Shown here: positions 5,355-34,841 of the stretch, one piece after another | Layout of the letters: each line of letters starts with the position of its first letter | How positions within the stretch are numbered: position 1 is the stretch's first letter | Virus record (IMG/VR): IMGVR_UViG_3300009684_000086 | Span: 1 to 35,610 of that record | From: a virus | Strand: one strand, 5' to 3' | DNA: 35,610 nucleotides | Notes under the pieces: model-generated | Told to the model about the DNA's origin: nothing | Seen by the model: the letters and a program-made list of their open reading frames with translations, nothing else | The model's database searches: none | Program-made: the position numbers and the translations under genes

Positions 5355-6854
5355 TTATTTTTTATTTACAATTTGGAATTTTATTGTTCTTTTATAAGTA
5401 TCTACTTCCCCTGAAGTAATTACCCTTATATCTATATAATATTCATTTGGTAATTTATCTTTTGTGTCAAACATAAAATAATATTCATTTGTTGCTCTAT
5501 TTAATTTTTCCCAATCCTGTACCTGAACCTCAGTGTTGCCCTCTCTTACGTATATTCTGTATGACGCATCAACATTTTGTAAAAGTTGTTTTGTGGTGTA
5601 AGCTTTCTTAATTGTAACACCAATTTTTCTTAAATCAGTATTAAGTATTTTTTCATCCTGTTTAATACCATAAAAATCAAATCCGTATATTTCAGGTTCC
5701 CTTGATTGTGAACCTATTGTAATTCTATTCTTATATGGTTGTAAAACAAATTCGTTTTCAATATTAGATAAGTTATTACCATCATATTGTATATCACCCC
5801 AAACATCATTGAATACGCAAGGAGTTTTATAACCAATTATAGGGGGTATTACAACCTCATAAACACCTTTTGTTCTTGGACATGACGTAAGTCCTGTTAA
5901 AGTGGGTATTAGGTCACCATTGGGGTCTAAAATAGACACAGTTGGGTTAACATCCAATGTTGTTAAGTTCCCATCAATATAAACATACAGATAAAGTTTA
6001 TTTGTTTTATTTTCTACAAATAAATTTCTATCATCTTGAACTAAATCATTATATGTTGATAATAGATAAGGTTCGTAAAATGTTTGGGTAAATCTACTGA
6101 AAAATGAAACACAATAATTGTTAGTTAATCCCGTTACTTTTTCAAATTCTGGTCTGTAAGCAATCCCCCATCCTGAAACATCGGTAATAGTTCCGTTTAA
6201 GATACCATTTATTTCGTTAGTCATGTTAAAGTTAATATCTTCGTCACCTCTATCAAAATGTTGTGAATCAACAATGATTAATTGGTCATAATTTACTCCT
6301 GATATAGAACTATTAGTATTAGAATAAACTCCATATTCAGACCAAGTATTTAAATTATTTCGTTGGAACCAATTTGAAGGTCTATCAGAGTAGGATTTAT
6401 CTCCTATTAATTTTTTGGCAATTAATTCTCCGTTATATGCGTTTAATTGGTCACTTGAATAATCATATCCCACACCCTCATCCCAATCTTGTATTGTTCC
6501 AGTATCTCCTGAAGTTAAAGGGATTCTGAATAAAATTAAATCAAATGAACTCGCTCTCCGTCTACTATCGGAATTTAATGAGTTTAATAAATCCGCATCA
6601 AAACGAATTGTATTTGACATTGTTAATGTATGAGTTAAAGTATTCGTACATTCTGTCGTTATTATTCCTGATGAAATTTTATCAAGTAGTTCTGATAAAT
6701 CTATATTGAATAAAAATCGGCTAAATCCTGTTGGGGATATAGACATATCATTACTACCAAAATATAAATCAGTTATTGGATTTCTACCCGTATTGGCTAA
6801 TGTGTTAGAAACTAACGTATTGTTTTTACTAAAATATGACCTGTGAGTTGACAT
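5355..6854 (-). CDS. Putative virion/tail structural protein, 499 residues
   Basis: No specific family is recognised. The sequence is rich in beta-strand patterns, Asn, Ser and Thr, with no signal peptide, membrane segment or enzyme motif. These are typical features of baseplate or tail-appendage proteins. The last third (about 380-499) looks like one or two Ig-like beta-sandwich domains (IGVTIKKAYTTKQLL, YRIYVREGNTEVQVQDW, YYIDIRVITSGEVDTYKR). The gene lies 29 nt after the gp5-like baseplate gene on the same strand and abuts the next gene, so it is probably co-transcribed with baseplate genes. Function beyond structural is unknown. Confidence 0.7.
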   Translation of the reverse strand: MSTHRSYFSKNNTLVSNTLANTGRNPITDLYFGSNDMSISPTGFSRFLFNIDLSELLDKISSGIITTECTNTLTHTLTMSNTIRFDADLLNSLNSDSRRRASSFDLILFRIPLTSGDTGTIQDWDEGVGYDYSSDQLNAYNGELIAKKLIGDKSYSDRPSNWFQRNNLNTWSEYGVYSNTNSSISGVNYDQLIIVDSQHFDRGDEDINFNMTNEINGILNGTITDVSGWGIAYRPEFEKVTGLTNNYCVSFFSRFTQTFYEPYLLSTYNDLVQDDRNLFVENKTNKLYLYVYIDGNLTTLDVNPTVSILDPNGDLIPTLTGLTSCPRTKGVYEVVIPPIIGYKTPCVFNDVWGDIQYDGNNLSNIENEFVLQPYKNRITIGSQSREPEIYGFDFYGIKQDEKILNTDLRKIGVTIKKAYTTKQLLQNVDASYRIYVREGNTEVQVQDWEKLNRATNEYYFMFDTKDKLPNEYYIDIRVITSGEVDTYKRTIKFQIVNKK

Positions 6855-12500: not shown

Positions 12501-12507
12501 ATTAATA

Positions 12508-13563: not shown

Positions 13564-13566
13564 ATT

Positions 13567-15193: not shown

Positions 15194-15206
15194 TTTTTTT
15201 TTAATT

Positions 15207-15647: not shown

Positions 15648-15653
15648 TTAATT

Positions 15654-16391: not shown

Positions 16392-16392
16392 A

Positions 16393-17091: not shown

Positions 17092-18454
17092 AGTTATAGT
17101 TTTTTAAAAAATTATTCAAATCTTCAGGAGTGCCCAACCCATGCATTTTATCTATTTGGTGTGTTATTATTTTTTTACCGTCTTCAATAGCTTGATTAAA
17201 AACAGGACAAACATAAAATTCATTATTAATTCTTATATTTTTTTCAATCATTTTTTCTGCGTATTTTATATAATCTGACCCTTTTTTCCAATAATAAATT
17301 CCCACAGTTGCAACATCTGATATTGGGTTTTTTTCCGCAACTTCTGTAACAAATCCATTTTCGTCTAATTTAACAAAAGACCATTTTGGATGAGTAGAAT
17401 TAAAAGTTACGATTCCTCCATCACAATTATTTTCATTCATTTTATAAATAAATTCATTCGAATCCCACTCAACAAATTGGTCAGAATTTGCCATAATTAA
17501 TGGATTATCATTATCTATTAAAGTTTTAGCGAGTAACGTGGTACATGCAGCACCTTCAGTAACCTCATCGACCTCAATAATATGACATTTATGGGATATT
17601 AAATTTAATAACGTATCTAAATTATACATTTCCCTGTGTTTTTTCTGAACAATATAAATAAAATTTGCATTAATATTTAAATTTTCTGTAACTACTTTAA
17701 TCATTGGTTCTCCATTAATATCAATTAATGGTTTAGGAAAAGAATACCCCGCCTTTTCAAAACGTGAACCAGCACCTGCCATAGGTATTAATACATTTAA
17801 AGACTCATCAGTCCATTTTGGTTTTTTCATATTATAATTAATTTCATTTATTTTATTTATTTTATTTTTTATTTTAACGTATGTAATATCAGAAGGAGAA
17901 GTAACTCTCATAACTAAAGAATTACTTCTAAATGCCGATAATAATCCAGTTGGAGAATCCTCAATAATTAAAGTTTCTTCGGGCAAAACTTTCATATTTG
18001 ATATTGACCTCCAATAAATTTCAGGATGAGGTTTAGAATTAGTAACATCTTCATTGGATAATATTAAATCAAAAAATTGAATAATACCTAACTTAGATAG
18101 AACTGTATTTATAGTTTTACGTATGCTATTTGAACAGCAGGCGATTTTAAATCCATCTTTTGATAATTGGCCAATACATTCTATGAGTTCCTTAGATTGT
18201 CTTAAGTTTTGTAATTTATTCAGGGTTATTATTTGTTTTTTTTCCCAAATACTTGTATGTTTTTCTTTTTCCAAACCCTTATATTTAGTTAACATATCGA
18301 GTTTCTGATTTGTTTTTAACCCATCATATTTACTAATATGCTCATCCCAATTTATCCTGTATTTTTCTGGAAGAGATTCGTTTAATGCTTCGTAGTGAAT
18401 ATTTTTAGCATCGACTAAAACACCATCAAGGTCAAATATTATTAATTTTATCAT
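17081..18454 (-). CDS. Fused HAD phosphatase and sugar nucleotidyltransferase
   Basis: This 457-residue protein joins two enzymes. Residues 1-215 are a HAD-IA (beta-phosphoglucomutase-like) phosphatase: nucleophile loop FDLDGVLVD (D8, D10), motif II CCSNS (S108), motif III Lys in NSKPHP (K141), and motif IV IIEDSPTG (E165, D166). Residues 218-457 are a nucleotidyltransferase of the sugar-1-phosphate NTP-transferase family: LIPMAGAGSRFEKAG (222-236), SFPKPLIDINGEPM with K241, and MANSDQFVEWD with D325. Together they would prepare an activated nucleotide sugar for the surrounding glycosyltransferases. The HAD part could remove or choose a phosphate before or after activation. Catalytic residues look intact in both parts. 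The linker near 195-215 is Lys/Asn-rich. Confidence 0.88.
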   Translation of the reverse strand: MIKLIIFDLDGVLVDAKNIHYEALNESLPEKYRINWDEHISKYDGLKTNQKLDMLTKYKGLEKEKHTSIWEKKQIITLNKLQNLRQSKELIECIGQLSKDGFKIACCSNSIRKTINTVLSKLGIIQFFDLILSNEDVTNSKPHPEIYWRSISNMKVLPEETLIIEDSPTGLLSAFRSNSLVMRVTSPSDITYVKIKNKINKINEINYNMKKPKWTDESLNVLIPMAGAGSRFEKAGYSFPKPLIDINGEPMIKVVTENLNINANFIYIVQKKHREMYNLDTLLNLISHKCHIIEVDEVTEGAACTTLLAKTLIDNDNPLIMANSDQFVEWDSNEFIYKMNENNCDGGIVTFNSTHPKWSFVKLDENGFVTEVAEKNPISDVATVGIYYWKKGSDYIKYAEKMIEKNIRINNEFYVCPVFNQAIEDGKKIITHQIDKMHGLGTPEDLNNFLKNYNYGY

Positions 18455-18457
18455 TTT

Positions 18458-19123
18458 TTAAATTCTATTTGGGAATTCTTTATTTAAGTATTTATATCCG
18501 TTTGTTCCAAACAAAGTATTATTATGTTTTTCATCCAAAAATTCAATTTGAATATTTTTACTTTTAAAAAGTGCCGACCAACATCTTTCCATTGCGCATT
18601 GTTCATTTTTATTTGACGGAAAATAATTCAAATCTTGAATTATTTTATTTACATCATTTTTAGTTATTGCAAACATTGGTCCAAATATACCTAAATCAAA
18701 ATCTTTAACACCAAATTTACTAATACAAAAATTAATTTGTTCTTCATTATCATAAAAGTTTGAATCAAAATAAATAAAACCAACAACTGTATTATCCTTC
18801 AATTTTTTATCAATATCATCAAAAAAATATTTGTTTTTTATAGAAATTGAATCTTGTATAAAATAATATTTATCTGAATTTATATTCTTCATTGCGTAAA
18901 TATAAGCCCCACTATCGTATCCATGATAGGGTGTTTTTAAAATTTGTATTGACAATTTAGAAAAAATTTCTTTATTTTTAATTTTATCTAAAAATTTTAA
19001 GCTCTCTTCATTAGTGCTACCGGTATCAATTAAACAAATTTGTTTGTCAATAAAAAAATTTTCGAAGTCAGTTAAAATCCTCCCAAGGTACGGATAACCG
19101 TTATTTGTTGCTATTATAACCAT
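18458..19123 (-). CDS. Glycosyltransferase-like protein, GT-A fold
   Basis: This 221-residue protein has GT-A elements. ICLIDTGSTNEES (29-41) is the GT2 nucleotide-binding loop, TPYHGYDSGAYIYAMKNI (64-81) is the helix leading to the active site, and KYYFIQDSISI (85-95) takes the DxD place with Q90 D91 S92. GIFGPMFAITKNDVNKI is the later acceptor-region motif. It follows the 502-residue double GT by 3 nt and precedes the fusion gene by 3 nt. It is smaller than most GT2 enzymes but has all main landmarks. A chance TATAAATA lies inside its 3' end, upstream of the fusion gene. Confidence 0.75.
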   Translation of the reverse strand: MVIIATNNGYPYLGRILTDFENFFIDKQICLIDTGSTNEESLKFLDKIKNKEIFSKLSIQILKTPYHGYDSGAYIYAMKNINSDKYYFIQDSISIKNKYFFDDIDKKLKDNTVVGFIYFDSNFYDNEEQINFCISKFGVKDFDLGIFGPMFAITKNDVNKIIQDLNYFPSNKNEQCAMERCWSALFKSKNIQIEFLDEKHNNTLFGTNGYKYLNKEFPNRI

Positions 19124-19126
19124 ATT

Positions 19127-20635
19127 TTATTTTATAAATAAAATTTTATCTTTTATTTTTTCATAATTATTTTTAACGAATGGAAATAAGTTATTTACAT
19201 AATCATTATTTAATTTTTTTATGTCATCTGAGTCATCCTTCCTTGTTTGAGATTCGTAATGATATGCAACTGATTTACCTGAGTAATAATTTGTTAACCC
19301 TAAAATAACACATTTTAAATTTAATTCAACATCTTCAAAACATGATTTATAATTTTCATTAAACATTTCACACTTTATAAAAATATTTTTCCTTATCATT
19401 AGTAGTGCCGCCGTATTTCCTATAACATCTCTAACATATGTCCCATATCTATAATAAGACCTAAGATTTTCATGTGTGACTTCTAATTTCTTATCTTTAA
19501 TAAACATAATAATACCGTCATGTTGAGTTGTATTGTCCTCAAAATGAAGTCTAGCCCCGACGGTACCAACATTTTTGTTGTTTTTAAATAATGTTAACAT
19601 GTCGTAAATAACATTATTCATTAATTTAATATCGTTATTACAAAATAATATAAATTCAAAATCATCTGTTATATGATTTTTTACAACATCGTTATTTATT
19701 TTTGCAAAGTTATAAAAATTATATTCTATTAATTTTATATTACCTAAATTAAGTATGTTTGATTTAATCCATTCTTTTTCTAAATCATTAGAACCTGTAT
19801 CAGCAATAAAAATATCAAAAAGTTCCGAATTACAATGTTGATAAAAAGAATTAACACAATTAAATAACATTTCAACCTTACCTTTTGTTGGTATAACAAT
19901 TGCAACTTTTTTTATATTCTTTATTGGACTTTCTTTTATCTTCTCAACAAAAATTTCGGATGGTTTTAAGTCTAAAGGTAATTTACTACCCCACTTATCA
20001 ATAAATTTTTCCTTACTTTCCCAAAATTCTTTGTTAGGTTGCCCAACTGATTCGTGAGTTATCTCAAAAGATGTTGTAACACCAATTTTAACATTATCCA
20101 AATAATTAGGTAGACAAAATAAATGGTCGTAAAAATGGAATCTTCCTATAGATTCGTCAAATGTATGTTTTATTTTAGTTTTATCAAACGATATGAATAA
20201 TCCGTCAATTGTTACTACAGGTATTAAAAATGGTAATTTTGCGGAATATTTACTCAACCACTTTTTTTGACCTTCGGGATGATGGTAAACTTGACCAACC
20301 ATTGTTTGATTCATTTTTTCCCAGTATATTCCAGATTCAGGAAAATAACAAGAACCCGCTTTACCAATGATACCATAATCAGGATTTTCTTCAAAATCTT
20401 TTAATAGTTTTTTACCCCAACCATTTTCTAATTTGATATCATTATGACAACATACAATAATATCAAATATTGATTCTTTAATACCTTTATTATAAACTTC
20501 AGCCAAACTATATTGGTTCATATTAACATACTCCAATATTTGGAAATCTTTTACACCAATTGTTTTAGATATTTTATTTTTAAAATTTTTATTGTACTCT
20601 TGGTCTTTATGAGTTGAATATATAACTGTTATCAT
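19127..20635 (-). CDS. Double-domain glycosyltransferase (two GT-A domains)
   Basis: This 502-residue protein carries two GT-A domains in tandem. Domain 1 (about 1-225) has ITVIYSTHKDQEYN, SLAEVYNKGI (43-52), and IIVCCHNDIKLENGW (59-73) with the acidic motif H64-N65-D66. Domain 2 (about 242-470) has VAIVIPTKGKVEMLFNCVNS (244-263), IFIADTGSNDLEKEW (275-289) and FILFCNNDIKLMN (328-340), then NVGTVGARLHFEDNT and FEDVELNLKCVILG. Both acidic motifs appear intact, so it may transfer two sugars in sequence, like chain-extending enzymes. It lies between single-domain GT genes with 1-3 nt gaps. Confidence 0.85.
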   Translation of the reverse strand: MITVIYSTHKDQEYNKNFKNKISKTIGVKDFQILEYVNMNQYSLAEVYNKGIKESIFDIIVCCHNDIKLENGWGKKLLKDFEENPDYGIIGKAGSCYFPESGIYWEKMNQTMVGQVYHHPEGQKKWLSKYSAKLPFLIPVVTIDGLFISFDKTKIKHTFDESIGRFHFYDHLFCLPNYLDNVKIGVTTSFEITHESVGQPNKEFWESKEKFIDKWGSKLPLDLKPSEIFVEKIKESPIKNIKKVAIVIPTKGKVEMLFNCVNSFYQHCNSELFDIFIADTGSNDLEKEWIKSNILNLGNIKLIEYNFYNFAKINNDVVKNHITDDFEFILFCNNDIKLMNNVIYDMLTLFKNNKNVGTVGARLHFEDNTTQHDGIIMFIKDKKLEVTHENLRSYYRYGTYVRDVIGNTAALLMIRKNIFIKCEMFNENYKSCFEDVELNLKCVILGLTNYYSGKSVAYHYESQTRKDDSDDIKKLNNDYVNNLFPFVKNNYEKIKDKILFIK

Positions 20636-21469
20636 TTATTTAAAATTATTTTCGTAATATTTTTTAGCGTTTTCCTCAGCAATTTTATAAATATCCTGAT
20701 TTAATTGTGTTGGATATCCCCCATCTAATGGGGACCAATACGAGTGTTTGAAGTTTTCTCGATAGTCTGTGAATTTATAACCTTTTAAATGTAGACTTTT
20801 AAACCAACGGTCACCTAAATCTAATCCATAAACACCAAAAAATGGTGTATTATTATTAGGAAATGTTTCTTTATTATTTATTTCTCTGTTAATTAAACAC
20901 GCCCATTCATTAAGTCTACATTCAGGCATTGGTTTTGGGTTTTCTCTATCAATATTATGTAACCCTGTTCTTATATGAGGAAGTTTTAAAGTTAATACTT
21001 CGTCAATTGTTGGGTTCCAATCGTAAAATTTTTCACCACTACAGAGTCCTTCTTGTTTAGCAGGACAATTCCAACATTGTCCTATTTCTCCAATTCCTGC
21101 AGAGTCTTTAACATTTACTAACATGTTACCAATAATATCCCCAGTATACAATACATCATTATGTGTGATGAATATAAATTTTTTATCACTCTTTTCAATA
21201 CCATATTGATATCTCACAGAATGTCTATCAGATTCATCAAAATTATTTGTGTGAAACTTAGTGAACTTATAATTATTTGGTGTGTGTATTATTAAATTAT
21301 CAAAGTAATCAAAAATCCAATCAATATTTTCATTATATGGTTGTTCTTTTTCCTTAATAAGAAAAATTTTATCGATTAAATGACCACTATGTTTCATTAA
21401 ACTTTTTAATGTACATAAAGTTTGCCACGGTTTACCAAAAACATTTATACAAACATCAATTTTTTCCAT
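20636..21469 (-). CDS. Putative glycosyltransferase, GT-A-like
   Basis: This 277-residue protein starts EKIDVCINVFGKPWQTLCTL, as in GT2 relatives. KFIFITHNDVLYTGDII (97-113) contains the HNDV acidic motif seen also in the double GT. A small Cys cluster (CWNCPAKQEGLC) follows and could bind metal. GVYGLDLGDRWFKSLHLKGY and HSYWSPLDGG fit the acceptor side. It begins 3 nt after the FkbM gene and is followed at once by the double GT. Probable enzyme of the same glycan pathway; donor and acceptor are unknown. Confidence 0.72.
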   Translation of the reverse strand: MEKIDVCINVFGKPWQTLCTLKSLMKHSGHLIDKIFLIKEKEQPYNENIDWIFDYFDNLIIHTPNNYKFTKFHTNNFDESDRHSVRYQYGIEKSDKKFIFITHNDVLYTGDIIGNMLVNVKDSAGIGEIGQCWNCPAKQEGLCSGEKFYDWNPTIDEVLTLKLPHIRTGLHNIDRENPKPMPECRLNEWACLINREINNKETFPNNNTPFFGVYGLDLGDRWFKSLHLKGYKFTDYRENFKHSYWSPLDGGYPTQLNQDIYKIAEENAKKYYENNFK

Positions 21470-21472
21470 ATG

Positions 21473-22018
21473 TTACATCCAATTATTATTAACTATTATA
21501 TCTAATTTAGATAATTCGTGTTTAAGTTGACTCGAATTTTTATTAAAAAATCCATCGTGCCATTCAATATAAATCTCATTTATTTTATTTATCGCACCTG
21601 ACGATAATAAATCACTAACAACATTATATTCCGCACCTTCAATGTCTAATTTAACTATAATATAGTCATCATCTGAAAACTGATTTAAAAAATCTGAAAA
21701 TCTAATAGTTTTTACTTGTTTAGGATTATCTAAATCTAATTTTTCTATTTTTGTTGGGTCTAAGGTACATCCTAAATCACCCCATTTATCAACGGATATA
21801 TAAAAGTTCATTGTATCTTCCTTATCCCACAAAGCCTCAGTTCTAATTATAAAATTATAATTCTTATTAGTTTCTTTAATATTATTTAAAGTATCGTAAT
21901 GACTATCATTACATTCAAAAAAATAAACATCACACCCTTTTAAATCTTCTCTTGGGTCTAAAATAATTTCAACTGTTTCACCAATTCTGGCACCACCATC
22001 AATAAAAATTTTTTTCAT
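21473..22018 (-). CDS. FkbM family methyltransferase
   Basis: This 181-residue protein has the FkbM SAM-dependent methyltransferase core. KKIFIDGGARIGETV (2-16) is the SAM loop, VYFFECNDSHYDTL (31-44) is the end of the second strand, and IIVKLDIEGAEYNVVSDLL (120-138) is the signature. IYIEWHDG follows. FkbM enzymes methylate hydroxyls of sugars and other small groups and are frequent in phage and bacterial glycan clusters. It is shorter than many members at the C-terminus but contains the full core. It is 12 nt downstream of the dUTPase gene and directly precedes a glycosyltransferase gene. With the TylF-like enzyme, the cassette has two separate methylating activities. Confidence 0.87.
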   Translation of the reverse strand: MKKIFIDGGARIGETVEIILDPREDLKGCDVYFFECNDSHYDTLNNIKETNKNYNFIIRTEALWDKEDTMNFYISVDKWGDLGCTLDPTKIEKLDLDNPKQVKTIRFSDFLNQFSDDDYIIVKLDIEGAEYNVVSDLLSSGAINKINEIYIEWHDGFFNKNSSQLKHELSKLDIIVNNNWM

Positions 22019-22030
22019 AATTTAGTTATT

Positions 22031-22597
22031 TTATATTCCTGTTGAGCCAAATCCATTATCTCCCCTCTCTTTATCTTCTACTGAATCAACTTTAACCAAA
22101 TCAACCCATTTTCCGTTAATTACGGGACATAAAACAGCTTGAGCGATTTTCATTCCTTTAATGATTGATACGGGTAAATTACTTGAGTTAAAAATAATAA
22201 CTTTAATTTCCCCATTATATCCTGAATCTACAGTTCCTGGTGTATTTAGAACTGTCAATCCTTGTTTTAGTGCTAACCCACTCTTAGGTCTTACTTGTAT
22301 TTCAGTACCATCAGGAATATCAAATCTAAGACCTGTTGGTACTAATACTCTATCAAATGGTTTTAATTCAAAATCCTCTGTTGAATAAAGGTCAAATCCT
22401 GAATCAGATGGGTAATTATATTCTGGGTCGGATACTTCGTCAGTTAATTTTTCGTATCTTAACTCTCTTTTTGGTGTATAATTATCAAATTCTTCATCTA
22501 ACCCATCTAAATCAATTCCCATATCAGATAATAGTTCTTTCATTTTAGTTAATTCCCCATCATCTTTTAATAAATAATCAAATTCATCTGTCATCAT
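22031..22597 (-). CDS. dut: dUTPase with acidic N-terminal extension
   Basis: All five trimeric-dUTPase motifs are present: I DSGFDLY (65-71), II RPKSGLA (103-109), III GTVDSGYNGEI (121-131), IV GMKIAQAV (148-155), V RGDNGFGSTG (178-187). The enzyme converts dUTP to dUMP, keeping uracil out of DNA and supplying dTTP synthesis. About 45 acidic residues precede the core (MMTDEFDYLLKDDGELTKM), longer than usual, perhaps a protein-interaction or regulatory tail. The start overlaps the exonuclease stop by 4 nt (ATGA); a second ATG follows immediately. The gene is a nucleotide-metabolism gene embedded between glycan genes. Confidence 0.95.
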   Translation of the reverse strand: MMTDEFDYLLKDDGELTKMKELLSDMGIDLDGLDEEFDNYTPKRELRYEKLTDEVSDPEYNYPSDSGFDLYSTEDFELKPFDRVLVPTGLRFDIPDGTEIQVRPKSGLALKQGLTVLNTPGTVDSGYNGEIKVIIFNSSNLPVSIIKGMKIAQAVLCPVINGKWVDLVKVDSVEDKERGDNGFGSTGI

Positions 22598-23298
22598 ATT
22601 TCTAACTCTTTTAATTTTTTAATAATATCAATTAATACTTTAACGTCACGTTCACAGTATTCTGTTATTTCTTTTAATTTATTTTCATCCCAATATGCAG
22701 AATGTACTTTATCTCCAGTTACTTCACCATCTTTAGGTGTTGGTATATCCATAGTACTACAAAGTAAATCTAATGAACCTATTGATGTGTAAGCACCGTA
22801 CTGCCAAATTTCTTTAGTATCTATTGCTTTAATTTCCCAAGGTTTTGTATCATAACTTGGAAGTATTGACGGTGGCATAAGTCCGTTGATAATCATTCTT
22901 TTTGCAAGCATCGGTATATCAAAGTTTTTTAAGTTGTGTCCACATAAGAAGAAATCCAACTTACCACATCTATCTAAAAGTTTTTGACAATCTTTTAATA
23001 ATTGTTTCTCATCATCACCTGAAAAAGTTTGAGTTTTAACTTCATTTTTATCAGTAACAAACGCAACGCTAACACAAACTATTTTTGCAAATTCAGGAAC
23101 AAGTGCCGCTCTTTTAATAAAAATCTCATCTAAAGATAGTTGAGAATCCTCAGGAAATCTTTTTACAAACCAATCAATATATTTAACATATTGTTTAGCG
23201 ACATTTGGATTAGTGGTTTTACACGATTCATAATTTTTACAACCGCCAACAGTTTCAATGTCAAGAAATAAAATTTTTGTTATAGGAATTTTTATCAT
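22594..23298 (-). CDS. 3'-5' exonuclease, DEDD/DnaQ-like
   Basis: This 234-residue protein has the DEDD exonuclease motifs: Exo I FLDIET (11-16; D13, E15), Exo II GHNLKNFDIP (120-129; D127), and Exo III YCERDV (214-219; Y214, D218). The Exo III spacing marks the DEDDy subgroup. The layout resembles stand-alone PolB-type exonuclease domains often found in phages and Bacteroidota. It could proofread for the phage polymerase or process DNA or RNA ends. A Cys pair (C20, C26) is near the active site. It precedes dUTPase with a 4-nt overlap, so the two DNA-metabolism genes are coupled. It starts 4 nt after the GT-B gene ends. Confidence 0.88.
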   Translation of the reverse strand: MIKIPITKILFLDIETVGGCKNYESCKTTNPNVAKQYVKYIDWFVKRFPEDSQLSLDEIFIKRAALVPEFAKIVCVSVAFVTDKNEVKTQTFSGDDEKQLLKDCQKLLDRCGKLDFFLCGHNLKNFDIPMLAKRMIINGLMPPSILPSYDTKPWEIKAIDTKEIWQYGAYTSIGSLDLLCSTMDIPTPKDGEVTGDKVHSAYWDENKLKEITEYCERDVKVLIDIIKKLKELEI

Positions 23299-23302
23299 AA
23301 AA

Positions 23303-24520
23303 TTATTTTATAAGTGATTTGTACCATTCAGCTCTTGCCTTTGTTACCACATTCAAATCATATGTGTCTTTAACTGTTTCGTATAATCTTTCACCCAAAT
23401 CTACAACTAAATTTCTATTATCGTTCAATTTTTTTATAAATTTATACCAATCACTGTGATTTCTATTTTCATCCACCAATAACGCATTGCCATCAGAAGT
23501 AAAATTACCATTATTTAATGCGTGTTTTAAGTCAACAGTGTAAGGACCAACATTAGATGCTATGATTGCTTTTTTGTAGAATCCCGCCTCAATTACTTTA
23601 AGTTGTGATTTAACTCTATTGAAAATATGATTTTTAATCGGAGCTAATGACACATCAAATTTTGAGTAGTTTTTAGCATATGCGGTTACAGGTCTTGTCC
23701 AAACTCTTCTATATAATTCATTTGCTTCGTTAGGATATTCCTCTTCTTTATACATTTTTAGATGTTTTACATACTCATCAGATAATCCATAATATTTGTC
23801 AGTAACAATTTCTTCATATTTAGCCCACACCGTTTCTTCAGGTTTAATTGGCCTTTGTTTTTGTTCTCCTGTTTGTTGATTAATTTCAGTAATTGTACCT
23901 CTTGTATCAAATCCACATAAAACAAATTGAAGGTCTTCTCTTTCTGAATTTAATTTGGACATGGATTGTTCCATTAACATCAAATCATGCAAATGTGATG
24001 AACCACCTAACCATCCAATTCTTAATTTATCACTTGGTAATGTTGGTTCCTTAAACTGACCTTCATTTGGATTAATTGCGTTAGGGAAAATAACAACATT
24101 TTTATTTAATAGTTTTATTTCGTCAGCAAAAATAGATGTTGTTGTAGTAACATACTCTGCCGCTCTTAAATTGGCAGTAATTTTTTCATTCAATTTGTTA
24201 ACTCTAATTATTTCGTAGATAGGGTGTTCTTTTGTTGGTAACCAATAATCATCAATATCAACAATAGTAATAATTCCCATTGATTTTAATCCTTGTAATA
24301 AATTTGGAGTTTGTTCGTAATTTTGTCCTATATTTCTATGGATATGAACAATCTGATATTTTTTCCAATAGTTAATATCGTTAATCTGTGGTGAATAATC
24401 TATATCCACATGAAAATCATCGGGATACATATTTTGTAAGAACACGTGCGGGTCAACTGAACGAAATTTACCTACGCCGGTTTTATCTGATGGGAGAACT
24501 AGTACATTAATTTTTGACAT
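23303..24520 (-). CDS. Glycosyltransferase, GT-B fold (GT4-like)
   Basis: This 405-residue protein begins with INVLVLPSDKTGVGKFRSVD (4-23), a Gly-containing first strand-loop. VHIHRNIGQN (58-67) and TIVDIDDYW (85-93) belong to the N-terminal Rossmann domain. The C-terminal domain opens with LRIGWLGGSSHLHDL (166-180) and has the GT4 donor motif SQLKVIEAGFYKKAIIASNV (305-324). An insert (about 205-265: GTITEINQQTGEQKQRPI) is unusual. The 51-nt gap upstream is the longest within the minus-strand block and could hold a promoter; no exact TATAAATA was found in it. The gene begins the glycan/DNA-metabolism run. Confidence 0.85.
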   Translation of the reverse strand: MSKINVLVLPSDKTGVGKFRSVDPHVFLQNMYPDDFHVDIDYSPQINDINYWKKYQIVHIHRNIGQNYEQTPNLLQGLKSMGIITIVDIDDYWLPTKEHPIYEIIRVNKLNEKITANLRAAEYVTTTTSIFADEIKLLNKNVVIFPNAINPNEGQFKEPTLPSDKLRIGWLGGSSHLHDLMLMEQSMSKLNSEREDLQFVLCGFDTRGTITEINQQTGEQKQRPIKPEETVWAKYEEIVTDKYYGLSDEYVKHLKMYKEEEYPNEANELYRRVWTRPVTAYAKNYSKFDVSLAPIKNHIFNRVKSQLKVIEAGFYKKAIIASNVGPYTVDLKHALNNGNFTSDGNALLVDENRNHSDWYKFIKKLNDNRNLVVDLGERLYETVKDTYDLNVVTKARAEWYKSLIK

Positions 24521-25145: not shown

Positions 25146-25553
25146 TTATGCTACGTTTTGTAAGGGAGTATTATCAAATTTCGCGTTAATGATAACATTA
25201 ACCATACTTTTATCTCCATTAAAATTATAACCATCTCTTGGCTCATTGTAAACTTCACCAGTTGGTTTTAACATTAATATTTTATCTAACCTAAATAACC
25301 TCCATCCTGGTAATGGTTGTTCACCATTATATGCGGTATAAGAAGACCCTTCCATATCCCAAGCTCTTAATACTCGGTTACCTGCTTTGCTAACACCAAA
25401 ACAAACAGGTTCTATTTCACGTAATCCACGACCTCCAGGCTCGTCACCATCGTAGTAGATGACGAGTTTCTGTCGGTTCTTAATTGCGTGAGTAATACCC
25501 TCAATCGTTGCCGATTCGGTAAGTACTTGTTTGAAGGTATTTATCAATTTCAT
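25146..25553 (-). CDS. WYL-domain protein with capsid-targeting-like N-terminus
   Basis: This 135-residue protein opens with MKLINTFKQVLTE|S. That resembles the T4 capsid-targeting sequence (MKTYQEFIAE), with LTE at 11-13 fitting the (L/I)-x-E protease rule. Residues 20-110 look like a WYL-type domain: AIKNRQKLVIYYDGDEPGG (23-41), REIEPVCFGVSKAGNRVLRA (45-64), WDMEGSSYTAY, and WRLFRLDKI (84-92). WYL domains bind nucleic acids or nucleotide ligands and often regulate DNA-related activities in bacteria. If the targeting peptide is real, the domain would be packaged in the head and injected with the genome. It overlaps its upstream neighbour by one base. Confidence 0.75.
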   Translation of the reverse strand: MKLINTFKQVLTESATIEGITHAIKNRQKLVIYYDGDEPGGRGLREIEPVCFGVSKAGNRVLRAWDMEGSSYTAYNGEQPLPGWRLFRLDKILMLKPTGEVYNEPRDGYNFNGDKSMVNVIINAKFDNTPLQNVA

Positions 25554-27153: not shown

Positions 27154-30100
27154 ATGTCGTATCAAAATATAAATCAGTATAATTTTAATAAGTGGTACCT
27201 TATAGATAGGTCTGATATTCAGGATTTTTGCTTGGCATCAGATGAAAAGGACTACAAATTTGAGGTTATTTTCTCAAATACACTTATTGGTGCCGATGAC
27301 GGTAATAAACTTCCTATCAGTTTTGATTTGGATTATAGTGGTAACACAGAATTTTATGTGTTAAATTATAATGAATATAATCCATTTAATAACTTAGTTT
27401 CATCCAATTATTATAACCCAAAAAATGAGGATTTAACTTGTTTTACAGCGAACACTGCCTGTGATATTGGACTTACAGGAACCGATAACGGACTTGTAGA
27501 ACAGATGACAGGTGAAACAATTACATTTACTCAAGGATTATTTGATAATTCGTTAAAGTTTGAGAGATTATATTTTGATAGAAGATTAAAACTTCACCAA
27601 GTAACAGGATATACCCAATCACCAAACATACAATTTTCAGGGCTACCTGATACCATGTTATTTAATGTAGTATCAAAATTGGAAGATAAGGTCGGTGTTT
27701 ATCATGAATTATATGGTGGGTTTTATCAAGGGTTTTATAAGTTACATGGATACGATTACGAAATTTTTCCTGAAAGAGTAAATAAGGGATGGACTGTAGA
27801 GATGTTATTAAAACCAAGATTGGTTGATGAATACATATTAAATCCCGGTGAAACAACTCTTAATACTTTCTATCCTGATAATAAAAATATATTTTTCTTT
27901 TTTGGAACTAGAGCAGAGAACAAATATTATCACCATGCTAGCGGAAGTCCTGTTTCAGATACGGGATATACGAGGGTAACATCTTTATTAAGTTCTATTG
28001 AAACTTGTGCATGTTGTGATTCAGGCGTGACTACTTCAAGATGTATTTACGTTTATCCTCCCCAACACGACCCAGCAATTACCGCAACCACTTGTGGATG
28101 GGAGGGACAAAAACACGCTTGTTCTGCGGTTACAACTACAACAACTGTACAATGTGCCCCTTGTGAACCTTGTTTAACAGGATGTGATGGTACAACACCA
28201 CAAACATACGAATATACTTGTGAAACCGACCCATTATTTGATTCAATGTCAAATGCCATCGCACTTAAATTATGTGGTGACCCAAAGAATCCTCAGATTG
28301 GTGTTAGAATGTTAAGATTTACGGGGACATCATTTGCCGATGGTAATTGTATCACGGGTTCTTGTTCTACAACAGGAGTTAGTGTTACGACAGGTTATAC
28401 AATAGAAACATTATGTACTCCAAAAGGGATATATGACGATTGTTTATTAATTAGTACCGAAATCTTAAACAAAGAACGTTGGATTCAGATTGATGCGGTT
28501 TGGGAAAGAAATACATATCTTGAAAATTGTGATTTGTGGTATAAAGGAGGCTTGGGACTAATAACAAAAACGGAATATCTTGCGAGTTTATCAAACAACT
28601 CAATTTCATTGGTAACACCAACTAATTGTTCTCCAGATGAAAAAATAACCTTATCTCAATTAAATCAAGCTTGGTTAAATGAGAAAGATTTTAGAAAAGG
28701 TAAATTAAAAATATATGTTAATGGTAGGTCATTCTATACTTTTGAGAATGTAGAAGAAATCATACCTAGGTCATTATATGCCGACAAAGAAAAACAACTT
28801 GGGGTTCCGTTTAGTATATCATGGGGTGGCGGAACGCAAGGATTACATAATAATTTAGTATTCACGGGAGCTCCTGATTCATTAACAGGTTTAATCTATC
28901 AACAAGACCCCGAATTATTCCCAAATAATATTTTAAGTGGTACAACTTTATCAGGTTTAACAACTAATATTTTATTAGAACAAAATTTTGGTGGAACATT
29001 TGATGGGGGTATTTCACAGTTTAGAATGTATAGCGAACCTTTAAGTGCGGATGAAGTTAAACATAACTACAAACTCCTTAAAGATAAATTTTCGTTATTT
29101 GATTATGATTGTCCTAATTGTTGCTTACCAAACGATATTATCGGTAATATTAGTGTATGTGATATTAGTTATGAGGTGTTATCAGCAAATACAATAACCG
29201 TAAGAGCGGTTTATTCTGCGGGTTCAATATCTTCAACATATATTGCAGAATCTCAATTTCCTTTAGATGATAATATTGATTTTACATTCACTAATACATT
29301 GGGTGTATATGTTGGAGACCCAATAATTATTGATGTTTCAATAACGATTGAATCTGGTTATAGTTCAGGGACAACAACAATCGTAATAGATTCCGATTTT
29401 AATAATTTGGACTTAACAAGTAGTTTTTCAGGGTTTAATACGACATTTACAGGAACTACACAATTTGGGTTTAGAGCGATATATGATTATAACTTTATAA
29501 TTCCTCCGAGCCCAACACCAACACCAACACCAACTCCTACACCAACTCAAACTCCTGACCAAGTATTAATTGACCCAATTATTACTGATAATGGTGAGTT
29601 TATTTCAGTTGGTGAAAACGAATATTTACAATTTGTTGACCCAGAACAAAATATTTTTGATGCGGTTTTAACTACTATCGGTGAATACATATCGGTTGGA
29701 TTTGACCAATTTTTAAGGTTTATAAATCCATTCCCAAGTCCTACACCCACGATGGGTTCACCATTTCAGTTAGGTAGAAAACATGTTAAAGATGAAAGAG
29801 ATAACAATTACTTAATTTCTAATTTTTACGATTGGTTAGTTAGTGTTAAAACCAAACCAACGGTTGTTCCAACGCCAACACCGACAAAAACAAAATTACC
29901 AATAACACCAACACCGACAAAAACAAAATTACCAATAACACCAACAAAAACACCAACCCCAAGTATAACACCAAGCAAATCAATAACAACGAAATATTGG
30001 GATGATAATGTATGGTGGGGTAATCAATTAAATACCCCAATGTGTGTTGGATATGCATGGTCTCATTGGATTTCAGATGGTCCTATAGTTCATACTGGAA

Positions 30101-30546
30101 CTCAACCTGTGGTTTCTCCTAGTTTAATATACTATGAAGCACAAAAAGTTGATGAATGGGTTGGTGAAAATTATGACGGAACATCAGTTAGAGGTGCCGC
30201 CAAATACTTAAAAACTACAGGTAAAATAACATCGTACTATTGGGCATTTGATGTTAACACTTTAGTTAATACCGTATTAAATATAGGCCCAGTTGTTGTC
30301 GGCACCAATTGGTATTACAATATGTTTTACCCCGTAAATGGTGTTATAAGTGTAGGAGGTTATTATGCTGGTGGTCACGCTTACGTAATAAATGGGGTTG
30401 ATACAGTAAAAAAACAATTTAGAATAAAAAATAGTTGGGGTCAAACTTGGGGTATTAATGGACATGCTTATATCTCATTTACGGATATGGCAAGATTAAT
30501 TTCTGAAAGTGGTGAAATATGTTTGGCGGTAGAAAACAATTTTTAA
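27154..30546 (+). CDS. Large tail protein with LamG-like region and C-terminal papain-like protease
   Basis: This 1130-residue protein has an N-terminal beta-rich region (1-210). A LamG/concanavalin-like region (about 214-645) begins WTVEMLLKPRLVDEY and ends GGISQFRMYSEPLSADEVKH, interrupted by a Cys/Thr-rich insert (C334, C337, C340, C344). Ig-like sandwiches follow, then two Pro-Thr-rich linkers (about 784-801 and 905-944) around a duplicated FISVG module. The last 180 residues are a C1A (papain) peptidase domain. Oxyanion-hole Q958 lies six residues before catalytic C964 (MCVGYAWSHW), with H1075 (GGHAYVINGVD) and N1093 (KNSWGQTWG), the full papain set in order. It is probably a virion appendage binding and cutting host surface protein, or processing itself. 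There is no signal peptide. It is preceded by the candidate late promoter. Confidence 0.82.
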   Translation: MSYQNINQYNFNKWYLIDRSDIQDFCLASDEKDYKFEVIFSNTLIGADDGNKLPISFDLDYSGNTEFYVLNYNEYNPFNNLVSSNYYNPKNEDLTCFTANTACDIGLTGTDNGLVEQMTGETITFTQGLFDNSLKFERLYFDRRLKLHQVTGYTQSPNIQFSGLPDTMLFNVVSKLEDKVGVYHELYGGFYQGFYKLHGYDYEIFPERVNKGWTVEMLLKPRLVDEYILNPGETTLNTFYPDNKNIFFFFGTRAENKYYHHASGSPVSDTGYTRVTSLLSSIETCACCDSGVTTSRCIYVYPPQHDPAITATTCGWEGQKHACSAVTTTTTVQCAPCEPCLTGCDGTTPQTYEYTCETDPLFDSMSNAIALKLCGDPKNPQIGVRMLRFTGTSFADGNCITGSCSTTGVSVTTGYTIETLCTPKGIYDDCLLISTEILNKERWIQIDAVWERNTYLENCDLWYKGGLGLITKTEYLASLSNNSISLVTPTNCSPDEKITLSQLNQAWLNEKDFRKGKLKIYVNGRSFYTFENVEEIIPRSLYADKEKQLGVPFSISWGGGTQGLHNNLVFTGAPDSLTGLIYQQDPELFPNNILSGTTLSGLTTNILLEQNFGGTFDGGISQFRMYSEPLSADEVKHNYKLLKDKFSLFDYDCPNCCLPNDIIGNISVCDISYEVLSANTITVRAVYSAGSISSTYIAESQFPLDDNIDFTFTNTLGVYVGDPIIIDVSITIESGYSSGTTTIVIDSDFNNLDLTSSFSGFNTTFTGTTQFGFRAIYDYNFIIPPSPTPTPTPTPTPTQTPDQVLIDPIITDNGEFISVGENEYLQFVDPEQNIFDAVLTTIGEYISVGFDQFLRFINPFPSPTPTMGSPFQLGRKHVKDERDNNYLISNFYDWLVSVKTKPTVVPTPTPTKTKLPITPTPTKTKLPITPTKTPTPSITPSKSITTKYWDDNVWWGNQLNTPMCVGYAWSHWISDGPIVHTGTQPVVSPSLIYYEAQKVDEWVGENYDGTSVRGAAKYLKTTGKITSYYWAFDVNTLVNTVLNIGPVVVGTNWYYNMFYPVNGVISVGGYYAGGHAYVINGVDTVKKQFRIKNSWGQTWGINGHAYISFTDMARLISESGEICLAVENNF
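29503..29558 (+). repeat. Pro-Thr linker 1 (ACACCA-type repeats)
   Basis: Repeated ccaaca-type hexamers encode a Pro-Ser/Thr-Pro linker (PPSPTPTPTPTP...). Such linkers are extended and flexible and separate domains of adhesins and tail proteins. Confidence 0.85.
29875..29940 (+). repeat. Tandem 33-nt repeat in Pro-Thr linker 2
   Basis: Two identical 33-nt units (29875-29907, 29908-29940) encode PTPTKTKLPIT twice, followed by a partial degenerate third copy. Perfect identity points to recent duplication and likely length variation among relatives. Confidence 0.9.
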
Positions 30547-30589: not shown

Positions 30590-33067
30590 ATGTTAACAGG
30601 AAAAACCATAGGACAATTAACTTATTTGGAAACACCGACACCGGATACTTTAATACCCGTAGAATTAAGCGGAGCCACATATCATATTGACTTCTCGGCA
30701 ATCACAGCAGGAGAACTTATTGAAGTAACTTATTCAGAACTTGTAGATAAAATAACGGGTGAAACATTAACAAAAGGTATTCATTATATCATAACAGATT
30801 TTAGAACTTGTTATGATGTTCCCGAATATTATTATAATGGTAATCCAAAAGATAATGGTGTGATTGATTATATGCAAGGTAATGTTGAACCAATTATTGT
30901 TTTATCAACAAGCTCAAATACAATTAGTTCAACCGCATATCAACAAGCATATCCAAATGATAGAATCCAATATGATTGGACTTTTAGTGCAACTGAAATA
31001 ACTCAAGGTGTTGCGTATGGTAGAATTTCTGAAAGAATTGATGAATATAACAATAGAACCGATTATGACCACAGAAATATCTATTTTAGTAGATTTCAAT
31101 CATATAATAAGGGTTCTCAATTAACAGGAACTATTGGTAGTTATAATAGCTCAACAGGTATAATATCAGGTAATGGCACATTATTTTTATCAGAAGTTTC
31201 AATTGGTGATATATTATTTTTTGAATATCAGGGTTATATGGTTGGTGTTAGAGTTTATAGTGCTAGTACTAATACTTTAATATATGTTATTGTTGACCCA
31301 TCATTTGGAAGTCAAGTAAACTTTACAGGAGGACTTATTCCTTTATACCACGCAACATCAACAGGTGATTATAACGAATATAAAGAAGTTTATATTGGGC
31401 AAAAAATTGAAGAAGATTTTCAAAGATTCCTAACTTTTAACTTTGATGGAAGTACTTTACATAACTACGTAGGTGATTATTCTAAATTTTATCTTAAAGA
31501 GATTGGGGGTAACTCTGGATTTTTATTGGCAAATAATGTGTTTTATGGAATTTATACTTACTCAAACACAATAGGTGATTTTTCTTATAATAATACCACA
31601 ACACATTCCTTTTCAAATAATAAAATATCCAATCAATTTTATAATAATACAATTCATCAGAATGGTTTTTATAACAATAATATTGGTCTATTATTTAACA
31701 ATAATATTGTTTATGGTGAATTATGGAGTAATACAATTAAAGAAAACTTTTATTCTAACATAATTTATAATAATTTTGATAATAATCAAATTGGTAATGA
31801 TTTTACTGAAAATGCAATTTATTCTCAATTTTCTGATAATCAAATTGGTAATGGGTTTGGCAGCAATACAATTGCTGATTATTTTCGCAATAATGAAATC
31901 GGAAATTATTTTTATAGTAACGAATTAAGTGGCGAAACATATAACAATATAATTGGTGAACAATTTGAATACAATACAATATATGGTGATTTTTATGATA
32001 ATCAAATTTTCAATCAATTTAAGAGTAATATAATATATCAAAGATTTGATACTAATAAAACAGATTGGGGTTTTGGGTCAAATCAAATTAGTGGGTATTG
32101 TTCAGCTAACTCGTTTGGACCCGCTATTGCTGATAACGACTTTTTGGGTAATGTTATTGCAAATACATTTAAAGGTAGTGTTTTAGGAAATACTATTGGT
32201 AATAATTTTTCCTCTAACAATATCGGTTTTGGTTTTATTAATAACACAATAGGTGAAAATTTTGGCACCGATGGTTTATCACCACAAGGAAATAATATAG
32301 GAAATAATTTTATTTATAATACAATAGGCGAATACTTCTACAATAACTCTATTCCTGATAATTTTAGTGGTAATACAATTGATAAATATTTCCAATGGAA
32401 TATTATTAATACAGCGGTTAGTGGTGTTTGTTTAAGTACTGGCGTGTTATATCATAATACAACAGTTAATGTATTTAAAAATAAAAATGGTGATAATAGA
32501 TTATCATATTATGATGAATCTGATGTTCTAACAGTAGAAACATTAACTGAAGCACCTTGTTTAAGTGGATTAAATGCGTTAGATATACCAGAAAATGATT
32601 TGAATTTTGGATTGATGCTTAGTCCTACATTTACAATAACATCCTCTGATTTTGCAACTGGTAATCCGTATTACCAAGATACAATTGCTTTGGGTGGTTA
32701 TGGAACTGATGGTTTTACCAATACGGCATCTCAAGGAGACTTAACCCAAGGTTATATTGGAGGTGGGTTACACGGTAATTCATTATCAGGATTAACCACA
32801 GCATATAATGCTTTAGGATTTAGTTTAAGTAATTACACAGGGCACTTGTGGTATGTAACTTGGGGTTCTGGTAGTTCAATAAATAAAGGAATTGTAAAAT
32901 TTGGAAGTAATGTTAATGGGGCGTCTTTTGATATTCAAACAATTGATACAACTGACCCAAATTATTTATTACCAAATGGTCAAGGTACAAGTTTATTTGG
33001 GACATTTTTATTTCCAGCAACATTTACAATTTATTATCCATTAACAAATAAATCAGATTGGTGTTAA
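30590..33067 (+). CDS. Tail fibre with nine-residue solenoid repeats
   Basis: This 825-residue protein has an N-terminal region (1-320) containing TYSELVDKITGETLTKGIHY and IITDFRTCYDVPEY, a motif set I recall from phage fibre/adhesin N-termini. Residues 327-604 are about 31 units of nine residues with consensus x-I-x-x-x-F-x-x-N, for example QIGNDFTEN, AIYSQFSDN, QIGNGFGSN, TIADYFRNN and EIGNYFYSN. The regular Ile/Phe/Asn ladder suggests a parallel beta-solenoid, probably two units per 18-residue turn. The C-terminal part (605-825) looks like a receptor-binding or trimerising head (LWYVTWGSGSSINKG). It follows the protease-bearing protein by 43 nt and precedes the pirin gene by 1 nt. It likely mediates adsorption. 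Confidence 0.8.
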   Translation: MLTGKTIGQLTYLETPTPDTLIPVELSGATYHIDFSAITAGELIEVTYSELVDKITGETLTKGIHYIITDFRTCYDVPEYYYNGNPKDNGVIDYMQGNVEPIIVLSTSSNTISSTAYQQAYPNDRIQYDWTFSATEITQGVAYGRISERIDEYNNRTDYDHRNIYFSRFQSYNKGSQLTGTIGSYNSSTGIISGNGTLFLSEVSIGDILFFEYQGYMVGVRVYSASTNTLIYVIVDPSFGSQVNFTGGLIPLYHATSTGDYNEYKEVYIGQKIEEDFQRFLTFNFDGSTLHNYVGDYSKFYLKEIGGNSGFLLANNVFYGIYTYSNTIGDFSYNNTTTHSFSNNKISNQFYNNTIHQNGFYNNNIGLLFNNNIVYGELWSNTIKENFYSNIIYNNFDNNQIGNDFTENAIYSQFSDNQIGNGFGSNTIADYFRNNEIGNYFYSNELSGETYNNIIGEQFEYNTIYGDFYDNQIFNQFKSNIIYQRFDTNKTDWGFGSNQISGYCSANSFGPAIADNDFLGNVIANTFKGSVLGNTIGNNFSSNNIGFGFINNTIGENFGTDGLSPQGNNIGNNFIYNTIGEYFYNNSIPDNFSGNTIDKYFQWNIINTAVSGVCLSTGVLYHNTTVNVFKNKNGDNRLSYYDESDVLTVETLTEAPCLSGLNALDIPENDLNFGLMLSPTFTITSSDFATGNPYYQDTIALGGYGTDGFTNTASQGDLTQGYIGGGLHGNSLSGLTTAYNALGFSLSNYTGHLWYVTWGSGSSINKGIVKFGSNVNGASFDIQTIDTTDPNYLLPNGQGTSLFGTFLFPATFTIYYPLTNKSDWC
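31568..32401 (+). repeat. 27-nt-period coding repeat array (about 31 units)
   Basis: The DNA has a 27-nt period produced by the nine-residue repeat, with recurring aatacaatt and attggtaat blocks. Divergence is high at third positions and in the outward-facing residues. It is coding and not a CRISPR array. Confidence 0.85.
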
Positions 33068-33068
33068 C

Positions 33069-33740
33069 ATGATAACAAAAAGACCATATAATACAAGAGG
33101 TAATCCAAGAGCCGACTGGATTAATTCATACAGGACATTTAGTTTTCCGGGTTATTTTGACCCAAATCATATGAATTTCGGTGATTTACAAACCATTAAT
33201 GATGATAGGGTTCAATCTGGAGGACACGTACCAATACACGAGCACAAAAATATGGAAATATTTGGTTATGTGGTAGAAGGTGTTTGTAGACATACTGATA
33301 GTCACGGAAAGGTATTAGACATACCAGCAGGTGCGGTACAAAGAATGAGTACAGGACGAGGAATAAAACATACGGAAGGTAATGCTTCGGACACACCAAA
33401 TCGTTATCTCCAACTATGGATTAAACCAAATGTGTTAGATACTGAACCAATACACGAATGGCATCAGTTTACAAGGGAAGATAAGTTAAACAAATTTTGT
33501 GATATAACCGAAAAACTACCAATTAAACAAGATGCTAAATTATTATCAGGAATATTTACCGAAGATTTTACATTTGAACTTAATGACATACGTAGATATT
33601 ATCTATATGTTGTTTCAGGCGAAATAAATGTAAATAATTATTCATTAATTGAGGGTGATGGTTTAAGTTTTATAAATGAAAATAAAATTGAGATTCAATC
33701 AACAACTGAATCTGAAATAATACTATTTGATTTACAATAA
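33069..33740 (+). CDS. Pirin family protein
   Basis: This 223-residue protein is a bicupin of the pirin/YhhW family. All four metal ligands of pirin are present: H57 and H59 (PIHEHKNMEIFGYVVEG), and H101 and E103 (GRGIKHTEG). N-terminal landmarks include SFPGYFDPNHMNFGDLQTIN (25-44). Bacterial members can act as quercetin dioxygenases, and human pirin is a transcription cofactor; the phage role is unknown. The metal site looks competent. It starts 1 nt after the fibre stop, so the two are translationally linked. Phage pirins are unusual, and placement inside a tail locus is odder still. It could be an auxiliary metabolic gene or a virion enzyme. Confidence 0.9.
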   Translation: MITKRPYNTRGNPRADWINSYRTFSFPGYFDPNHMNFGDLQTINDDRVQSGGHVPIHEHKNMEIFGYVVEGVCRHTDSHGKVLDIPAGAVQRMSTGRGIKHTEGNASDTPNRYLQLWIKPNVLDTEPIHEWHQFTREDKLNKFCDITEKLPIKQDAKLLSGIFTEDFTFELNDIRRYYLYVVSGEINVNNYSLIEGDGLSFINENKIEIQSTTESEIILFDLQ

Positions 33741-33764: not shown

Positions 33765-34841
33765 ATGATACAAGGAATTAGAATAACAAGTACAAATTTA
33801 TCGGGTGCTACCGCCGATGTAACTTTTTATCCAACAACAGGTGGTTCAACTTCTTTAGGTACTCAAACAATACCTTTTAATAACATTAGTGATTATCCTT
33901 ACGGTACCTATGATTTATCGGTTGCCGAATACGATAGAACTTATGAAATAATTGTACCAGCGCCATTAACAGGACAGAGCGGTTATACTGATACGGTAAG
34001 AAATGTTACTGTTGATGATGGTGCTCAACCATTCTCAGGTGCGGTATTATCTGAAGTGTGGGGAACATATACTACTGAATATATTACAAATGAAGGTGTC
34101 CCATCTACAAGTATCGTTTTAGCGGAAGGTATTTGTTCTGACGATGTTGATGCATCAAAAGTACCCGCAAATATTGGTGGATGGCCAAACAGTATTAATT
34201 CTTTTTTAGGACCATTTCAATCAGGTGGTTTAGCGGGTTATCCGTTTGTAGGTAGTGTTGGTTTTGGAGCATTTGCAAGTCACGTAGCAACAACTCTTGG
34301 TGGAACCTTGTTTGTTACAAGTATGCCACATATTGGTGTTACTGAAGATGGCCGTTCAGGTAGAATGTTAAGAAGAGGTAAAGGGGATAGTTTAACCGAT
34401 AATACTTGTGGTGCTGTATGGGGTGCAATTAACCAAGTTGTAAATGTGTTAAGTGCACCTCCAAGTCAAAATGATGCACCGTTTGATAATGGTAATTATT
34501 CTTTTTGGAAATTAACTGACATTTTATGGCCATATAAAAATGTATTATCAGGTTTTACAGGTACATCAGAAGAAATATATAATAAACAAATGGTATTCGC
34601 AACGGAAACTATCAGGGATTCTGCATATGATTATATTATTGCAAATTTACCTGCAGCAACAACCGCAAATACAGAAAATGATGTATATTTTTTAAGTGGT
34701 ATTTTTATTAATAGTGATGTTAGTACGGGTACGACACAATTTGAATCATATGTTGTTGTTGATAAAGTTATGAAATACGTATTTAATGACCAATGGTATG
34801 ATATAACGGATGATTATAAGGCAGGATTACCAATTGACTAA
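33765..34841 (+). CDS. LCIB-like (carbonic anhydrase-related) domain protein with fibre-like N-terminus
   Basis: This 358-residue protein has an N-terminal beta-sandwich-like domain (about 1-95; Thr/Gly-rich, like fibre proteins). A domain resembling the low-CO2-inducible LCIB/C family, relatives of beta-type carbonic anhydrases, follows. Landmarks in order are EGICSDDVDAS (121-131; C124, D126/D127), GGLAGYPFVGSVGFGAFASH (154-173), MPHIGVTEDGRSGRMLRRGK (187-206; H189, R203/R204) and TCGAVWG (214-220; C215). C124, H189 and C215 would be the zinc ligands in this family. The rest (230-358) is helical. It lies 24 nt after the pirin gene with a very A-rich leader. CO2 hydration is possible; it may instead be a binding fold. 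The family call is from remembered patterns and needs a profile search. Confidence 0.68.
   Translation: MIQGIRITSTNLSGATADVTFYPTTGGSTSLGTQTIPFNNISDYPYGTYDLSVAEYDRTYEIIVPAPLTGQSGYTDTVRNVTVDDGAQPFSGAVLSEVWGTYTTEYITNEGVPSTSIVLAEGICSDDVDASKVPANIGGWPNSINSFLGPFQSGGLAGYPFVGSVGFGAFASHVATTLGGTLFVTSMPHIGVTEDGRSGRMLRRGKGDSLTDNTCGAVWGAINQVVNVLSAPPSQNDAPFDNGNYSFWKLTDILWPYKNVLSGFTGTSEEIYNKQMVFATETIRDSAYDYIIANLPAATTANTENDVYFLSGIFINSDVSTGTTQFESYVVVDKVMKYVFNDQWYDITDDYKAGLPID

Follow-up and report, generated by a model that had tools for sequence, protein, structure and literature searches.

What is a carbonic anhydrase-type domain doing in a phage gene, and would it act on the virus particle or inside the infected cell? 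The question arises from a 358-aa open reading frame encoded at positions 33765-34841 (+) of a 35.6-kb viral record from IMG/VR (35,610 nucleotides, analysed at full length and referred to here as the window). A preliminary description of this DNA had proposed that the frame joins a fibre-like domain to a carbonic anhydrase fold of the LCIB type, which is known from algal CO2 concentration. The window carries a T4-type major head protein (phrog_138) and a PhoH protein, and it also shows weak similarity to a late sigma factor and to a baseplate hub. The nearest phage records to the head protein belong to an uncultured phage, a Microcystis phage and Flavobacterium phage immuto, each about 42% identical.

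By every feature tested, the domain belongs to the LCIB family. The four ordered motifs on which the preliminary description relied, beginning with EGICSDD and ending with TCGAVWG, are all present in the translation in the order claimed, and the coordinates of the frame are also as claimed. A Pfam search places PF18599 (LCIB_C_CA) on residues 104-333 at E=8e-29, with a score of 100.9 bits where the cut-off is 25. Among PDB sequences, phmmer with the 358-aa protein as query finds 6kfs (9.3e-14) and PtLCIB4 (5b5y; 5e-10), and a profile built from phage and cellular rows of the family matches 6kfs at 6e-56. The PF18599 cut-off is passed by 14 of 14 phage records and by 0 of 14 control genomes. 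As judged by sequence comparison, the LCIB match of this protein is far beyond chance, and the relationship to the LCIB_C_CA profile suggested earlier proves highly significant.

An AlphaFold2 model of the 358-aa protein, built on a 39-row alignment, has a mean pLDDT of 79.6, with values mostly above 80 from about residue 71 and about 40-64 for residues 1-70. When the model is used as a Foldseek query, ranks 1-7 are all occupied by LCIB-family structures. VIA-align superposes model residues 71-352 on 6kfs with a Z of 26.4 and an rmsd of 2.3 A over 243 residues, so that the predicted fold fits an LCIB crystal structure as the preliminary description had anticipated. PtLCIB4 aligns with a Z of 26.2 and the Chlamydomonas proteins LCIB and LCIC with a Z of about 20, whereas ordinary beta-carbonic anhydrases reach at most 12.4. 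Because the structural match spans residues 71-352, the putative catalytic module starts at residue 71; the LCIB domain itself was thus correctly recognised, but its proposed start at residue 110 was not. Similarly, the N-terminal part does contain modelled strands, at the low confidence given above, but the fibre-like label is not supported; the segment is a reusable module that also occurs on other phage proteins. A search of BFVD for a viral relative of the fold gave no match at E<=0.001. The features of the locus are collected in Table 1.

Table 1. Coordinates of the features of the LCIB-type gene and of two further genes in the window
Feature	Position	Strand	Basis
499-aa protein beside the baseplate-hub-like gene, without insertion; the loop that receives the insertion in L078/L079 corresponds to about 6489-6521	5355..6854	-	
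825-aa upstream neighbour, cluster c5, putative fibre-type by sequence appearance only	30590..33067	+	no Pfam/PHROG match
N-terminal module, residues 1-70, probably the attachment part	33765..33974	+	module sharing with other proteins; low-confidence modelled strands
LCIB-type beta-carbonic anhydrase domain, residues 71-352	33975..34820	+	PF18599, profile against PDB, VIA-align to 6kfs
C124, candidate first zinc ligand, CSDD motif	34134..34136	+	invariant in viral and cellular rows
D126, putative active-site Asp beside the zinc ligand	34140..34142	+	invariant
H173, aligned with PtLCIB4 H88	34281..34283	+	invariant
H189, candidate second zinc ligand, PHIGV motif	34329..34331	+	invariant
R203, sole invariant Arg	34371..34373	+	invariant
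C215, candidate third zinc ligand, TCGA motif	34407..34409	+	invariant

The putative active-site residues are kept throughout the alignments. C124, H189 and C215, which the preliminary description had named as possible zinc ligands, all fall on the LCIB ligand columns; this assignment derives from sequence and profile alignment to LCIB structures and not from distances in the model. The translation contains no cysteines other than C124 and C215. Together with D126, H173 and R203, the three candidate ligands are retained in all viral rows that cover them (92-94 rows, from a set of 94 distinct open reading frames plus that of the window), and the same six residues are invariant in the aligned cellular relatives and in the two structures. 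Of the 288 columns in the 25-row phage alignment, 40 are invariant; six named positions would all fall among these by chance with a probability of 5e-6. R203 may serve as the partner of D126. The correspondence of H173 to PtLCIB4 H88 was counted via the chain numbering, and H88A is one of the PtLCIB4 mutants among the deposited structures (5b5z), another being S47R (5b60); at position 125, the S47 column, the viral rows have Ser 85 times, Ala 7 times and never Arg. Over the whole gene, dN/dS against close relatives is 0.15-0.20. The alignment also contains a phage-specific insertion ahead of the FxSGGLAG motif.

Catalysis is favoured by the retention of D126 and H173 in every sequence, since neither is a ligand. 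However, recombinant Chlamydomonas LCIB and LCIC are without carbonic anhydrase activity although the site is present (PMC8825250), and intact residues are therefore no guarantee of activity. The phage domain is a predicted zinc-binding domain that is probably enzymatically active.

Domains of this kind recur in uncultured viruses. Three scans of IMG/VR gave 38, 67 and 146 matching places in overlapping sets (for the third, the best 80 of the 146 places were listed). The contigs of uncultured viruses thus code for the domain at more than a hundred sites, and at least 94 distinct viral LCIB open reading frames were extracted from these loci. Four diverged queries drew no match at all from 50,697 phage records, and no cultured carrier is known among these. 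The cellular relatives come mainly from Bacteroidota and Balneolota and are plain enzymes of about 230-255 aa. In a tree with long branches, built from 25 phage domains and 29 cellular ones, all phage rows group together in a single clade at 100/100 support, parted from all cellular rows by a branch of 1.63. The tree places the phage domains in a lineage of their own that is old and far from cellular LCIBs. This single clade and its branch, among the 25 phage sequences, exclude recent capture from a host as an auxiliary metabolic gene as the origin of the domain. An assembly chimera is also excluded, given that dozens of contigs show this fusion.

In these viruses, the LCIB domain is an exchangeable cassette that has moved between structural proteins. 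The N-terminal segments of the LCIB open reading frames cluster in 12 groups, the largest being that of the window's module with 36 members, followed by groups of 14, 11, 5, 4, 3, 2, 2 and 2 and by three singles. The window's N-terminal module also occurs elsewhere in related phages, either standing alone or heading other proteins, among them DUF285-repeat proteins matched with E-values down to 5e-185. Two such proteins are encoded at L177:1492-3201 and L179:1474-3192 (8e-118 and 5e-185, respectively), and in L173, L181 and L036 the module heads PT-rich stalks. A comparable arrangement is seen at L206:3072-8525 and L260:5809-11076, where several neighbouring proteins share a short N-terminal motif, VPDFRDL..RFSFKNVI, and differ in their C-terminal parts, LCIB being one of these.

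The cassette has also been inserted into a larger protein. In the contigs L078 and L079 it lies inside a 776-aa protein that is a homologue of the window's 499-aa protein, and in L078 the flanks are 53-57% identical to the latter. The gene order round the 776-aa gene is that of the window: a sigma-type gene, genes for proteins of 121 aa and 693 aa, a hub-like gene of 516 aa and the 776-aa protein. The insertion site is empty in the window and in five relatives, one of which (L185) reads through as RIP-NAQ-YWDEG. In a model of the L078 chimera the insert, residues 121-380, forms a complete LCIB fold (Z 26.6), and the C-terminal part of the 499-aa-type scaffold resembles Ig/macroglobulin-like sandwiches with a Z of about 11 in a chimera model that is weak overall (pLDDT 65.6). 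The window's 499-aa protein gave no Pfam match above cut-off and no PHROG or phage-record match.

The placement of LCIB genes in virion modules is conserved across lineages. In L081, L083, L089, L096 and L100 the LCIB gene is flanked on one side by a head-tail adaptor (phrog_211) and the genes that follow it, and on the other by the tail sheath and tube, the sheath matching phrog_23 at 1.7e-74. The cultured Flavobacterium phage immuto (Immutovirus) has the same genes in the same order, and its tail module resembles those of L089 and L100 in head completion, gp214 homologue, gp229 homologue, sheath, tube and hub, but the interval that holds the LCIB gene in the uncultured phages is filled in immuto by structural proteins of the tail-fibre and LamG-like kinds. 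Elsewhere the LCIB gene comes directly after the portal gene (phrog_213), in L209 and L215, or directly after that for the major head protein (phrog_138), in L219 and L227. In L222, L246 and their kin, a major head protein like that of crAss and Cellulophaga phage phi17:2 is followed by one further gene, the LCIB gene and a homologue of phi17:2 gp064, a structural protein. The lineages that bear LCIB genes therefore differ in head-gene family and include T4-like and crAss/Cellulophaga-like phages. A fibre-like protein of cluster c36, used as a query, gave 8 loci, most of them on contigs already in the set.

Loci with a tandem pair of LCIB genes are the exceptions: in L103, L105, L243 and L251 no recognised virion gene is a direct neighbour. 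Tandem genes occur at L103:4527-6593 and L105:4569-6624 and also in L205, L243, L249, L251 and L257; the second copy of a pair is almost without N-terminal addition, and the two products might form a heteromer. Late-operon position alone is no proof of incorporation into the particle. Nevertheless, the earlier proposal of a possible virion protein beside tail fibres has been strengthened by the insertion in a structural-module protein and by the neck, sheath, portal and capsid neighbours found elsewhere.

Several other genes of the window and of the related loci deserve mention in their own right. Directly upstream of the LCIB gene, positions 33069-33740 (+) encode a pirin/quercetinase-type cupin protein (Pfam Pirin 2.6e-24, Pirin_C_2 1.8e-16); since no more than 3 of the clustered loci contain it, it is excluded as a fixed partner. 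At 27154-30546 (+) lies the gene for a 1130-aa putative virion protein with PT-rich linkers and a papain-like peptidase domain at its end (phrog_16701 at 1.6e-44; Pfam Peptidase_C1 at cut-off); it is the window's second case of an enzyme joined to a protein of structural type. A run of glycosyltransferase-like, nucleotidyltransferase-like and methyltransferase genes at 11697-24520 (-), with a TylF-type methyltransferase at 16393-17091, possibly serves glycan decoration, and a 135-aa protein at 25146-25553 (-) has a weak WYL-domain match (8.9e-4) just under the Pfam cut-off. In another locus, L016:11494-12582 (-) encodes a 362-aa phage protein that has Fe/Mn superoxide dismutase domains at its end (Sod_Fe_C 1.8e-39); it adjoins a head-tail adaptor gene and has relatives of cluster c21 in L012, L025 and L093.

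Taken together, the 358-aa protein is probably a catalytically competent carbonic anhydrase of the LCIB type displayed on the virion. The link to the virion is drawn from the cassette inside a structural-module protein homologue, the roughly 12 N-terminal segments and the positions in virion modules. The short exchangeable N-terminal segment, or the protein hosting the insertion, would fix the domain to the particle, and the C-terminal LCIB-type domain, with an intact Cys-His-Cys zinc site, would be exposed there. The displayed domain would interconvert CO2 and bicarbonate, with a proton released or taken up, on the surface of the particle close to the host envelope, or alternatively after delivery with the particle. 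The protein's presence in the particle would then bring the phage a benefit, which we can only guess to be a change of pH or bicarbonate around the particle while it adsorbs and enters.

The chief competing account is a binding module without catalysis: a virion adhesin whose LCIB fold recognises a ligand on the host surface and whose zinc has a purely structural role. Vaccinia virus D8 offers a precedent, as a virion adhesion protein with a carbonic anhydrase fold that binds chondroitin sulfate (PMC4256255), and it parallels the phage protein in virion display, although it has an unrelated alpha-CA fold and belongs to an animal virus. The cassette moreover occupies the site of fibres and lectin-like LamG proteins in other phages, and its N-terminal module also heads DUF285-repeat proteins. 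However, in a module that served for binding alone, loss of catalytic residues and variation of the surface would be expected, whereas all six active-site positions are kept in every sequence, including the non-ligands H173 and D126, and we regard the adhesin as unlikely.

The intact active site would also suit an auxiliary metabolic enzyme that supplies or buffers bicarbonate inside the infected cell and is merely sited in late operons, and Bacteroidota and Balneolota chromosomes do encode related LCIBs as plain enzymes. This account is less likely still, because the phage copies, unlike the cellular ones, mostly bear N-terminal additions of a dozen kinds, two contigs have the domain inserted in a structural-module protein, the genes are often sited in virion modules, and the phage clade is old and separate. 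Carbon disulfide hydrolase is an example of other chemistry on the beta-carbonic anhydrase fold, and the long branch between the phage clade and cellular LCIBs and the phage-specific insertion before FxSGGLAG could point to a different zinc chemistry here too; the retention of all residues aligned as invariant in the LCIB family active site makes this very improbable.

Compared with known systems, the catalytically competent, virion-displayed carbonic anhydrase favoured here amounts to a familiar enzyme fold placed in a new context, that of a virion module subject to shuffling. PtLCIB4 and 6kfs, the latter deposited as a 'CCM related protein', share with the phage domain the whole fold (Z 26), the Cys-His-Cys ligands, the Asp and the invariant Arg, and PtLCIB4 also shares the histidine and a Ser at the S47 position. 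However, they belong to cellular CO2-concentrating systems, whereas the phage copies form a separate clade, have extra N-terminal segments or lie inside another protein, and often stand in virion gene modules. Chlamydomonas LCIB and LCIC (5k5w, 5b5x) have the Pfam family and fold in common with the phage domain but are more distant in sequence. The shuffled Ig-like and LamG domains of phage virion proteins are likewise single domains swapped among structural proteins, but the LCIB cassette is, by prediction, an apparently intact metalloenzyme. In the open-access literature searched, which lacks most subscription papers, no phage particle is described as bearing a carbonic anhydrase; a preprint pairing 'carbonic anhydrase' with phage was dismissed, since the protein served there as a size-exclusion standard.

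The dozen carrier segments and the mostly particle-building neighbours suggest that the particles of some viruses bear an enzyme acting on CO2 and bicarbonate. It is conceivable, at somewhat less than an even chance, that phages from two or more unrelated lineages, T4-like and crAss/Cellulophaga-like, bear an active, exchangeable carbonic anhydrase on the particle exterior and use CO2, bicarbonate and proton chemistry at the host surface during infection. If so, an enzyme that changes pH and bicarbonate would join the depolymerases and lysins already known to be borne on phage particles. The LCIB family, whose best-known members are without measurable activity, gains over 90 naturally occurring new variants, borne on carriers that can be separated from them, which open activity, zinc binding and particle display to direct tests.
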